From positions 1 through 39,626 of the forward strand of contig JAGLID010000045.1 of NCBI GenBank assembly GCA_023143145.1: a stretch of DNA of 39,626 nt, given 5' to 3'. Origin of the DNA: Minisyncoccota bacterium (GTDB taxonomy: Bacteria; Patescibacteriota; Minisyncoccia; JAHIHE01; JAGLIN01). Each line of letters opens with the position of its first letter. Within the stretch, counting starts at the first letter, position 1. This document shows, in pieces, positions 8,496 through 13,172 of this stretch. The notes beneath the pieces were generated by a model. That model saw only the letters and a list, made by a program, of their open reading frames with translations, was not told the DNA's origin and made no database searches. Made by a program: the position numbers and the translations under genes.

Positions 8496-10292
8496 CTAAA
8501 TTTTCTTCAATTTAACTCCCAGTTCATCCAGTTGCTCTTTTCTAACTGCGCTTGGACTATCCATCATCAAATCTCTTCCTTTCCCATCTTTTGGAAAGGC
8601 ATAGATGTCGCGAATCGAATCATAATCACAAAGAGTCATCAAAATTCGATCTACTCCAGGAGCACAACCACCATGAGGAGGTGCACCAAATTTCAAAGCC
8701 TTAATCATTCCGCCAAATTTAGCATCCACTTCTTCTTTCGTATATCCAGCAATTTCAAAAGCCTTATACATAATTTTTGGTTTATGATTTCTAATTCCGC
8801 CACTCAAACATTCAAATCCATTCAAAGATATATCAAATTGATTATTGATAATTTCAAGTGGGTCTTTTGATTCAAGTTCCTCAATCCCACCTCTGGGCAT
8901 TGAAAATGGATTATGTTCAAAATCAATTCGACCCTCTTCAATCTCAGAATAGGCAAACATTGGAAAATCAACTATCCAGCACCAAGCAGCCTTTGAATTA
9001 TCCTTAAGCCCAAGTCTTGTGGCACATTCATTTCGCACAGAACCCAAAGCCGAACAAACTGTTTTCCACTTATCTGCACCGAAAAATATAATATCACCAG
9101 AAACTGCTTCAACTTCGCTGGCAATCTCTTTCGTTAAATCATCACCAAGAAATTTCACAATTGGAGACTGAAATTCTCCACCTTCTTTGACAATAATATA
9201 TGCCAATCCTTTTGCCCCTTTTTCCTTGGCAATTTCCGTCAGCTCATCAATTTCTTTTCGAGAAAATTTTGCACCTCCGTCAATTTTCAAAGCATGAACT
9301 GCGCCGCCCTTTTCGACTGTGTCAGAAAAAACACTAAACCCACAACCTTTTATCAAATCTGAAATTGGTTTGATTTCCAAGTCAAAACGTAAATCTGGTT
9401 TGTCCGAGCCATATCTTTCTAATGCTTCTCTCCATGGAATTCTTTGGAAGCTTTTATCCTCATTAAGTGCAACAATTTTCTTTTTACTAAATTTTTCAGT
9501 GATTTCAACAAACAAAGGTTCCATAATCTCAAAAATATCATCTTGCTCCACAAAACTCATTTCCATATCAATCTGATAGAATTCTCCATAGGCCCTATCC
9601 ATTCGTGGATCTTCATCACGAAAACAAGGTGCAATCTGAAAATATTTATCAAGTCCTCCAACCATCAGAAGTTGTTTGAATTGTTGAGGAGCTTGAGGAA
9701 GAGCATAAAACTTTCCTGGGTGAATCCTAGAAGGAATCAAAAAGTCTCTTGCTCCCTCTGGAGAAGAATTGGCCAAAATTGGTGTTTGAACTTCAATAAA
9801 ATCTCTCGTTTGAAAATAATTTCTTACATGTTGAAATAATTGATCTTTAATCTTTAACATTTCCTGCATTTTCTTTCTACGTAAATCAAGAAATCTATAT
9901 TCCAAACGAATTAACTCATTCGCCTCCTGGCCTTTTTCATCATTAATTTCAAAAGGAGGAGTCTCTGATTCCGACAAGACTTCAATTTCATCCGCCTCAA
10001 CTTCGATCTCGCCAGTTCCAAGTTTTGAATTGATCATACCATTAGGTCTTGAAATTACCGTTCCTGTAATTCTGATCACATATTCGGTTCGAATTTTGTC
10101 AGCAGTTTCCCACGCCGATTTTGACACCTCTGGATCAAATGTAATTTGAGTAATTCCATATCGGTCACGCAAATCGATAAAAATCAATCCACCGTGATCT
10201 CTTCTGGAATTCACCCATCCCGATAAAATAACTTCTTGATTTTCTTCTTTTTTTGATAACACTCCGCAAGTATGAGTTCTATATTGTTGCAT
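8496..10292 (-). CDS. aspS: Aspartyl-tRNA synthetase
   Basis: MQQYRTHTCGVLSKKEENQEVILSGWVNSRRDHGGLIFIDLRDRYG, class II motifs, C-terminal GGCAPGVDRILM. Confidence 0.98.
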   Translation of the reverse strand: MQQYRTHTCGVLSKKEENQEVILSGWVNSRRDHGGLIFIDLRDRYGITQITFDPEVSKSAWETADKIRTEYVIRITGTVISRPNGMINSKLGTGEIEVEADEIEVLSESETPPFEINDEKGQEANELIRLEYRFLDLRRKKMQEMLKIKDQLFQHVRNYFQTRDFIEVQTPILANSSPEGARDFLIPSRIHPGKFYALPQAPQQFKQLLMVGGLDKYFQIAPCFRDEDPRMDRAYGEFYQIDMEMSFVEQDDIFEIMEPLFVEITEKFSKKKIVALNEDKSFQRIPWREALERYGSDKPDLRFDLEIKPISDLIKGCGFSVFSDTVEKGGAVHALKIDGGAKFSRKEIDELTEIAKEKGAKGLAYIIVKEGGEFQSPIVKFLGDDLTKEIASEVEAVSGDIIFFGADKWKTVCSALGSVRNECATRLGLKDNSKAAWCWIVDFPMFAYSEIEEGRIDFEHNPFSMPRGGIEELESKDPLEIINNQFDISLNGFECLSGGIRNHKPKIMYKAFEIAGYTKEEVDAKFGGMIKALKFGAPPHGGCAPGVDRILMTLCDYDSIRDIYAFPKDGKGRDLMMDSPSAVRKEQLDELGVKLKKI

Positions 10293-10327: not shown

Positions 10328-10375
10328 CATTTTAGAAACCTAGCTCCGAAGCTTCGGAGCTAAGTTCCTAAAATG
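10328..10375 (-). other. 48-nt inverted repeat (long hairpin) upstream of aspS
   Basis: CATTTTAGAAACCTAGCTCCGAAG|CTTCGGAGCTAAGTTCCTAAAATG; 24 positions, two mismatches that become G.U on the minus-strand RNA. Confidence 0.8.
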
Positions 10376-10386
10376 TTCATATAACA

Positions 10387-10445
10387 AAAACTCCGTTCTT
10401 ATTTAATAAGTGAAAAACAAACTCATTAAATAAGAGCGAAGTTTT
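10387..10445 (-). terminator. Long hairpin terminator upstream of aspS
   Basis: 25-position arms 10387-10411 and 10421-10445, 22 Watson-Crick matches; minus strand followed by GTTTTTG. Confidence 0.7.
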
Positions 10446-10548
10446 ATTGATTATTATTATCTAAGTAATTAATTCTCATATTTTTTGCCATTTTCATTAA
10501 CTATATACATAATAACAAAGATATAAAAAAAGTCAAAGAAAAACACAC

Positions 10549-10630
10549 AGCCTACATCTTTTCAACGTATCTATCCCTGATAAACTCAATCCATTTATAA
10601 TCACGATCATTATTGATTTAAGTAAATAAA
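10549..10630 (-). pseudogene. Decayed duplicate of the argS 3' end
   Basis: About 72% identity by eye to 11424-11508; translates YLLKSIMIVIINGLSLSGIDTLK versus ArgS YLSKSVAITIKNGLDLLGIDTLKKM*. Confidence 0.7.
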
Positions 10631-10637
10631 AAAAGAA

Positions 10638-10664
10638 GCAGAGCCTATATTGGCTAGGCTACTG
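10638..10664 (-). terminator. Terminator after the multiheme protein gene
   Basis: Minus strand GCAGTAGCCTA..TAGGCTCTGC followed by TTCTTTTTTT. Confidence 0.7.
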
Positions 10665-10671
10665 CATTTGT

Positions 10672-11265
10672 TTAGTGGCAAATTCTACACTCACCACTAT
10701 GTTCTCCTCCAGGTCCCTTTCCTGGATTGTCATCATGATGAGATCCATGACAATCATCACAATTTTTATGAAGACTTGTTCCGTGACAAGCTCCACAGTT
10801 TTCCTGATGTATTCCAGAATATCTACTATGGCAAACTATACAACTCCTTTCAGTCGGAGCTGGACTCCCTTTATGGCAAAAAGGATTTATACAGCTGTAT
10901 TCATCAAGAATATCTTTATTATGATGAATCTCTTTTCCATCATGACAGTATTGACATTCATTATGAATGTTTCTGTTCGCTCCGTGACAATCCTCACATT
11001 CACTATGAATGCTTTTTCTACTTCCATGACAATCATCACAATCTTCGTGAAGGCTCGCTATGTGGCAATCTAGGCAATCCTTCTCCATATTATGAGGATT
11101 ACCAACGTCATCTTTGCCAGATTCAACATTACTGCCACTGTTTCCAGTGTCATCAGAACCACTAGGTCCAGGTCCTCTGGAATCACCTTTGCCAGCATCA
11201 ACCGAAACTATGGCAGTCAAGACCAATGACATTAGCACTAGACAAACAATCATTTTTCTATTCAT
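10672..11265 (-). CDS. Exported multiheme c-type cytochrome-like protein (8 CXXCH + 1 CX4CH)
   Basis: Signal peptide MNRKMIVCLVLMSLVLTAIVSVDA; CLDCH, CDDCH, CEDCH, CQYCH, CINPFCH, CIVCH, CGACH, CDDCH, CRICH; second ATG fits the GAGG SD better than the track start at 11271. Confidence 0.88.
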   Translation of the reverse strand: MNRKMIVCLVLMSLVLTAIVSVDAGKGDSRGPGPSGSDDTGNSGSNVESGKDDVGNPHNMEKDCLDCHIASLHEDCDDCHGSRKSIHSECEDCHGANRNIHNECQYCHDGKEIHHNKDILDEYSCINPFCHKGSPAPTERSCIVCHSRYSGIHQENCGACHGTSLHKNCDDCHGSHHDDNPGKGPGGEHSGECRICH

Positions 11266-11282
11266 ACCCATATCCTCTTTTT

Positions 11283-11308
11283 AGAGTATTTCTTAAAAGA
11301 AATACTCT
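11283..11308. promoter_or_regulatory. Perfect 12-bp inverted repeat just upstream of the multiheme gene SD
   Basis: AGAGTATTTCTT-AA-AAGAAATACTCT. Confidence 0.65.
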
Positions 11309-11426
11309 TTTGAAATCTGAAATTTAATTTATAAAATAATTATAACCTAAATTCCAATTAAACAACATCTAAGTTGGTATAATAGTTAAACCTAATCTTA
11401 ATTATTACATCAATAACATAGATGTT

Positions 11427-13172
11427 CTACATTTTTTTCAATGTATCTATCCCTAATAGATCTAATCCATTCTTTATCGTAATCGCGACCGATTTTGATA
11501 AATAAATTCTAGCTTTAGCAACCTGCATCTCTGATTTTATAATAGGTGTAGAACTATAGAAATTATTATACAAAGAAGCAAGTTCGTAAATATACAAAGC
11601 AATCAAATGCGGTAAATTTTCACGAGCAGCATTTTCAATAGCTTCCGGAAATTTAATTAATTGCCTTAAAATATCTTTTTCCATATCCTCTTTAAGCAAA
11701 CCAAAATCCGGCTTATCCAGAATATTGATTCTGTTTAATCTGTAAGCTCTATTATATTTTTCAACCAATGAATTTATTCTCGCATAAGTGTATTGCAAAT
11801 ACGGTGCGCTATTCCCTTCAAAAGAAAGCATTTTATCCCAGTTAAAAGCAATGTCTGTCAATCTATTCTGCGATAGATCATTATATTTTATAGCTCCAAG
11901 TCCTACAATTTTTGCAATCTTTTTTTTCTCCTTATTGCTTAGCTTGGGATTCTTTTCTTCCACGACTTTTTTTGCGATTTCAGTTGATTTTTTGATAAGC
12001 TCGTCAAGTTTCACCGTCTCCCCTTTTCTGGTTGAAAACTTTTTTCCTTCTTCTCCTAAAACCATACCGAATTTGATATGCTCAATTTGAGTATTTCTAC
12101 AAATACCCAATAATTCAAGCGAGGCGAATAATTTCTGAAAGTGCAATGCTTGTTCATTGGCAACTACATAAAGGATCTTCTTAGCTCGAAGTTTTTCTTC
12201 ACGATACTTTGCCGTCGCAATGTCAGTTGTCGTATAAAGATATGCTCCGTCTGTTTTTTTTATTAAAAATGCGGATAGATTATATTTATCAAGAGCGATA
12301 ACAATTGCCCCTTCGCTCTTTGTCGCAATTTTTCTCTCCAAGGCATCATTCACAACTCTTGAAAGCATTCCGTCATAAAAACTCTCGCCTAAAACATAAT
12401 CAAATTTTACACCTAAAGTTTTATATATCTTATTATAGTCTTTCAGACTTTCCTTAATTAGATATTTCCAAATCTTGATATTTTCGGTGTTTTTCTCTTG
12501 AAGCCTTTTTGTCTCATGTCTTGCAAACTCCTCAAGGTCCTTATTCTTCTCAACTTCTTTGTGAAATCTAACATAGAGTTTTGTCATCTCTTCAATGGGA
12601 TTTTTATCAATCTCTTTCTTGTTTCCCCAATGTTTATACGCGTAAATTAATTTTCCAAATTGAGTCCCCCAATCTCCGATGTGATTGTCACCGATAACCT
12701 TATAACCCAAAAAATTATAAATATTATAAAGTGATTGTCCAATTATAGTTGAACGCAAATGTCCAATATGCATCGGTTTGGCAATGTTCGGAGCTGAATA
12801 GTCAATGACAACAACTTTTTCTTTCCCAATTTCTGATGAACCAAACCTATCTTTCTTTCTCAAAACTTTGCACAAGTTTTGCCTAAGCCGTTTGTCGGAA
12901 ATTTCAAAATTTATAAAACCCGGATTTGCAATCGTAACTCCGCTGAAAATCTCTTTATACTCTGCAATCGTATCAATCTTATTTCTAATTTTCTCCGCAA
13001 TTTCCATCGGATTTTGATTCAACTTCCCCGCCGAAACCATCGCCACATTTGAAGCATAATCCCCGCGCCCCTTCTGTTTTGGCCACTCCACCACAAAATT
13101 AGGAATTTCTATATCCTGATATAAATCCTTTATTGCTTTATTTATAATTTCCTTTATTTCTTTATTTAGCAT
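11427..13172 (-). CDS. argS: Arginyl-tRNA synthetase
   Basis: VIDYSAPNIAKPMHIGHLRSTIIG; C-terminus NGLDLLGIDTLKKM typical of ArgRS. Confidence 0.97.
   Translation of the reverse strand: MLNKEIKEIINKAIKDLYQDIEIPNFVVEWPKQKGRGDYASNVAMVSAGKLNQNPMEIAEKIRNKIDTIAEYKEIFSGVTIANPGFINFEISDKRLRQNLCKVLRKKDRFGSSEIGKEKVVVIDYSAPNIAKPMHIGHLRSTIIGQSLYNIYNFLGYKVIGDNHIGDWGTQFGKLIYAYKHWGNKKEIDKNPIEEMTKLYVRFHKEVEKNKDLEEFARHETKRLQEKNTENIKIWKYLIKESLKDYNKIYKTLGVKFDYVLGESFYDGMLSRVVNDALERKIATKSEGAIVIALDKYNLSAFLIKKTDGAYLYTTTDIATAKYREEKLRAKKILYVVANEQALHFQKLFASLELLGICRNTQIEHIKFGMVLGEEGKKFSTRKGETVKLDELIKKSTEIAKKVVEEKNPKLSNKEKKKIAKIVGLGAIKYNDLSQNRLTDIAFNWDKMLSFEGNSAPYLQYTYARINSLVEKYNRAYRLNRINILDKPDFGLLKEDMEKDILRQLIKFPEAIENAARENLPHLIALYIYELASLYNNFYSSTPIIKSEMQVAKARIYLSKSVAITIKNGLDLLGIDTLKKM

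Follow-up and report, generated by a model that had tools for sequence, protein, structure and literature searches.

Homology-facilitated illegitimate recombination is known from naturally competent species and from conjugation (PMC3240628; also summarised in PMC5361080). The same type of scar has been proposed for displaced T6SS immunity genes, effector 3' ends and orphan Rhs 3' regions (PMC5361080). Site-specific integration is a different route, in which ICEs and IMEs insert at conserved protein genes such as lysS, guaA and rpsI (PMC4701971). Transformation is also known to produce merodiploids (PMC3784515). Among the Patescibacteria, natural competence has been demonstrated in Saccharibacteria (PMC10633639).

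The argS locus described here shares with homology-facilitated illegitimate recombination one homologous anchor and the gain of foreign DNA beside the anchor, and a non-homologous junction is proposed for its other side. Unlike the described cases, it is read from sequence alone, in an uncultured Patescibacterium, and its anchor is an aminoacyl-tRNA synthetase gene. As in T6SS effector and Rhs displacement, a new module following a homologous upstream stretch would have shifted the old 3' part downstream. Displaced T6SS immunity genes are perhaps kept by selection, whereas at argS the stranded tail is without evident use and the anchor is an essential housekeeping gene. The locus also resembles the ICEs and IMEs, with an intact gene end, cargo, and a second gene end in direct repeat. 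We take the argS locus to be probably a known kind of recombination scar and not a new mobile element.

The window, that is, the whole stretch of 39,626 nucleotides analysed, belongs to genome G000. For comparison, G001 is of the same genus, G010 of a near genus and G007 of another genus of the family; G012, too, is of another genus. The features of the locus are as follows.

8496-10292, minus strand: aspS, the conserved neighbour downstream of argS (adjacent in 7 relatives, and an argS 3' end lies beside aspS in G004)
10387-10536, minus strand: resident aspS promoter, leader ORF and hairpin, right after the displaced tail (spacer homology to G008 and G006; promoter-like site)
10552-10630, minus strand: 3' tail of the resident argS, displaced, 79 bp up to the TAG, with one frameshift near the end (repeat finder, shuffle test, trees, identities)
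10642-10660, minus strand: terminator hairpin of the inserted gene (terminator scan), its T-tract abutting the displaced tail at the proposed illegitimate junction
10672-11271, minus strand: inserted gene, whose product, 199 aa long and putatively secreted, has eight CxxCH motifs and one CxxxxCH (motif count)
11272-11426, minus strand: spacer between argS and the multiheme gene, with no homology to any relative's argS-aspS spacer
11283-11308, no strand: 26-bp palindrome just upstream of the multiheme gene (inverted repeat, 12-nt arms, 100% complementary)
11427-11762, minus strand: argS 3' segment, about nt 1411-1746, coding for the DALR domain, imported from a G012/G007-like lineage (AU tests, MaxChi, DALR_1)
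11763-13172, minus strand: argS nt 1 to about 1410, coding for the N-terminal and catalytic domains, of the resident lineage (AU tests, Pfam domains)

The argS 3' end and its downstream copy form a real repeat. The repeat finder recovered it as an ungapped direct repeat of 72 nt with 72% identity and a spacing of 876 (10559-10630 versus 11435-11506), and in a gapped alignment the match continues through the TAG stop codon in both copies. Their Smith-Waterman score is 59, while 1,000 dinucleotide shuffles averaged 23 and did not exceed 36 (Gumbel p ~1e-8). The sequence-only reading had put the identity at about 72% by eye and suggested a shuffled-sequence null; the alignment stands far above the shuffles, and the independent recovery by the repeat finder agrees with the estimate. 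The peptides it quoted for the copy and for the end of ArgS are likewise correct. In a survey of 199 ORF tails from the window and related loci, each compared with its own 2 kb downstream, argS ranked first (59; runner-up 35). Searched against the whole 1.28-Mb genome, the copy had a clear match to the argS tail only (E=1.7e-5; next 0.03).

Comparison with relatives places the copy in its context. Nine family members, including the window, carry argS followed by aspS; argS is complete in seven of them, and in G007 and G004 the contig ends within the gene. The relatives have the empty state, in which argS leads directly to aspS with a single tail and no multiheme gene, as the sequence-only reading had proposed to look for. 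The sequence after the copy in the window is homologous to the argS-aspS spacers of G008 (score 162 against a null maximum of 36) and G006 (130 against 37), and it has a further hairpin in common with the G007 spacer. Against the argS-aspS spacers of 8 relatives, the sequence after the intact argS gave only alignment scores inside the shuffle range. Since the copy adjoins the conserved aspS upstream region and the intact argS does not, the copy occupies the place that belongs to the resident argS end, separated from the intact argS by 0.9 kb that contains the multiheme gene. The locus itself is native, because the window's neighbours on both sides are same-genus orthologues in the same order. 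The empty sites and the resident aspS context thus uphold the earlier view of the multiheme segment as an insertion and of the downstream copy as a displaced argS 3' end.

The copy is not a duplicate of the present argS tail, as it is nearer to the G007 argS tail (83% identity over the shared frame) than to its own (71%), and an AU test rejected its grouping with the window's own tail (p=0.024). The label "decayed second copy" of the window's own argS, given in the sequence-only reading, was therefore inaccurate, the match to the tail of another genus being better. Grouping of the copy with the G001 and G010 tails was also rejected (p=0.0004). The tree placed it with G007 and G004 with support of 71/98, a weak placement for so short a sequence. 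The resident tail is itself like that of genus g5, not like G001/G010, so that an earlier exchange at the same spot, or change in the G001/G010 tails, must be assumed. A plain tandem duplication of the argS tail within the genome, decayed afterwards, would account for the same orientation and the short distance of the two tails. It is largely contradicted already by the nearer G007 tail and by the conserved aspS upstream region, which follows the copy and not argS, and we regard it as extremely improbable.

The present argS is a mosaic, its first ~1,400 nt belonging with the same-genus lineage and its last ~340 nt with another genus. For nt 1-1380, AU tests did not reject a grouping with G001 and G010 (p=0.498), whereas grouping with G012/G007 (p=6e-4) or with G012 alone (p=2e-10) was rejected. 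For nt 1381-1743, it was grouping with G001/G010 that was rejected (p=0.007), and the tree joined G000 and G012 with support of 93/94. MaxChi located the break in G000 at 1409-1418; permutation p ranged from 2e-4 to 2e-3 in several triples, which were picked after the profile had been seen. Across the break, identity falls from 77 to 64% between G000 and G001 and rises from 73 to 79% between G000 and G012. The anticodon-binding domain DALR_1 occupies aa 459-581 of ArgS and starts at nt 1375, which puts the break (about nt 1375-1418) at the boundary of the catalytic and DALR domains. A stretch of high nucleotide identity lies immediately before the DALR start and could have served as a pairing anchor. 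Full-length argS trees left G000 unplaced. A xenologous replacement of the whole gene was also considered and rejected, the segment trees having only the 3' part leaving the same-genus lineage.

The insert between argS and the displaced tail holds the multiheme gene as its sole plausible gene, in agreement with the sequence-only reading, and the palindrome and the terminator claimed for that gene are present at the coordinates listed above. The gene has a GC content of 0.40 against 0.32 for the window. It was absent from 53 relatives, from a 380-genome sample of the phylum, and from viral contigs and plasmids. The genome of the window holds no second copy of the insert, palindrome included.

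In our view, the locus is probably the scar of a homology-facilitated illegitimate recombination that brought in a donor argS end together with the multiheme gene, with the junction in the resident tail; we put the probability of this reading at roughly 0.6. The donor DNA would have come from a related lineage (genus g5-like), with the argS end followed by the multiheme gene. Pairing with the argS of the recipient would have taken place in the conserved block that immediately precedes the DALR domain, and the resident DALR-coding end would have been replaced. Past the multiheme terminator, where donor and resident presumably no longer matched, the junction would have formed at a T-rich spot (TTTATTTA) within the final 80 bp of resident argS. 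Such an event would leave argS as a hybrid and add one gene, and 79 bp of the resident tail would be stranded but still attached to the aspS promoter of the resident. On the anchor side, the mosaic argS carries the donor-type sequence and its break falls in conserved sequence. At the other end, the copy starts at the T-rich tract abutting the multiheme terminator, and past the proposed junction the resident sequence is unchanged, the conserved aspS upstream region coming directly after the tail copy. Uptake by natural transformation may be suggested for the entry of the DNA; the genome encodes a member of the comEC family (PF03772, E=8.9e-53). The insertion is carried by one genome only, a draft assembly, and our searches found no donor genome with argS plus the multiheme gene.

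A single-crossover (Campbell-type) or merodiploid integration of a molecule with an argS 3' fragment and the multiheme gene would likewise yield an upstream hybrid argS and, downstream of it, a copy that lacks its 5' part but keeps the resident tail; most of this downstream copy would then have been deleted. Such an integration predicts a copy that starts upstream of the crossover, at about nt 1400, and an extra deletion of more than 255 bp is then needed; the observed copy, however, starts exactly at the T-tract of the multiheme terminator. We consider this course of events unlikely.

The sequence-only reading had taken argS for an attachment site and the insert for a mobile one-gene cargo cassette. 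On that account, an element with its attachment site in the argS tail restored the tail on integration, displaced the old one, and has since lost all but one gene. The geometry does fit, with intact tail, cargo and a displaced tail in resident context. In contrast to the ICEs and IMEs, however, the insert holds no integrase or element genes, it is single-copy in the genome, and the longest identical run between the tails is about 12 nt. With 72% identity over 72 nt, decay could have removed an identical core. Cassettes at other argS 3' ends, which that reading had proposed to look for, were not seen, none of 29 other argS loci having a second tail (best score 30, versus 59 here). Furthermore, the foreign tract in argS begins ~255 nt upstream of the repeat start and reaches back to the domain boundary. 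This fits recombination inside argS, not a crossover in an 80-bp core. Neither the attachment site nor the cassette is borne out by these results, and site-specific integration is in our judgement a decidedly improbable origin of the locus.

Two unrelated histories might also be imagined: in one, the DALR end of argS was replaced by normal homologous recombination, and in the other, the multiheme gene was inserted independently, together with a fragment of argS. Mosaic argS genes are common in the family without displaced tails, relatives having breaks of their own at about 1370-1383 in G012 and at about 1560 in G010. Exchange in argS is thus frequent in the family, and the G000 break may be separate from the insertion. 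Two events would then be needed, whereas one event is enough to explain the donor-type end of argS, the gained gene and the stranded resident tail. We therefore favour a single origin of mosaicism and insertion and hold two separate histories to be very unlikely. A broader reading is kept open because of the breaks in G000, G012 and G010 and of the argS-aspS spacers, which vary widely among relatives (97 to 1135 bp). According to it, the argS-aspS junction is a recurrent exchange point in this Paceibacterota family, at which genera exchange the DALR end as a module through uptake of DNA, in some cases bringing in passenger genes and leaving old gene ends stranded. At present this can be offered only tentatively, as possible but doubtful.

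Read as a recombination scar, the argS locus is a readable natural record, from an uncultured Patescibacterium, of the way in which one foreign gene can enter next to an essential one with no integrase involved. It links a domain swap in an aminoacyl-tRNA synthetase with the gain of a passenger gene. It also cautions that a gene 3' end present as a direct repeat is not necessarily an attachment site. A scar can be told from an attachment site by the resident context of the copy and by the foreign portion of the gene.

The product of the inserted gene matched no Pfam or NCBIfam family above cut-off. Its weak family matches were to Cytochrome_C7 (E=1.1, below cut-off) and, in PDB, to cytochrome c554 (E=0.017), and its N-terminus has a signal-like segment, judged by eye only. 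The CcmC/CcmF/CcsA family (PF01578) was not found in its own genome (92% complete) or in 16 relatives, while the same search found it in 9 of 14 control genomes. Without these proteins, either the multiheme-like CxxCH motifs would not bind heme c, or maturation would run some other way.

Several further observations concern the argS-aspS spacer of the relatives. Directly after argS in L047, L048, L049, L050 and L052, a promoter-like TTGACA precedes a hairpin-like stretch that contains C-rich runs (CCCCCACCCCCAC, CCCCTCGGACCCC). It has no Rfam match and is possibly an unnamed small RNA. The spacer of G007 (L052) contains a tRNA gene. In G008, G007 and G004 (L048, L052 and L055), the aspS at the same place beside argS is of a distant type, with 54-56% identity to the window's aspS, pointing to aspS exchange at this locus too.

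The aspS upstream region has features of its own, and its leader peptide and hairpin may outweigh the argS scar in value. Right after the stranded tail (10387-10479, minus strand) lies a short ORF, MRINYLDNNNQ; its stop leads into a hairpin of 24 pairs that terminates in a run of T. Leader peptides at the same place in 6 relatives read MKIIRLDDNNNQ, MKIIFLDENNNQ, (V)FYFKNNNDNNQ, (V)FYQKNNNDNNQ, (V)KFIDINNNQF and (V)EFSRDSNNRF. Seven genomes of the family share this arrangement, a short ORF containing Asn/Asp codons together with a long hairpin, and it shows covariation, with compensatory changes on both sides in 5 of the 24 pairs; the hairpin has no Rfam match. This makes the leader ORF and hairpin a candidate ribosome-mediated attenuator of aspS. 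The presence of gatB nearby suggests that it would sense the Asn-tRNA made by AspRS plus amidotransferase. Just upstream of aspS, the window also has a near-perfect 48-bp inverted repeat (10328-10375; CATTTTAGAAACCTAGCTCCGAAG / CTTCGGAGCTAAGTTCCTAAAATG), of which 49 of 53 positions are common to the G007 spacer.
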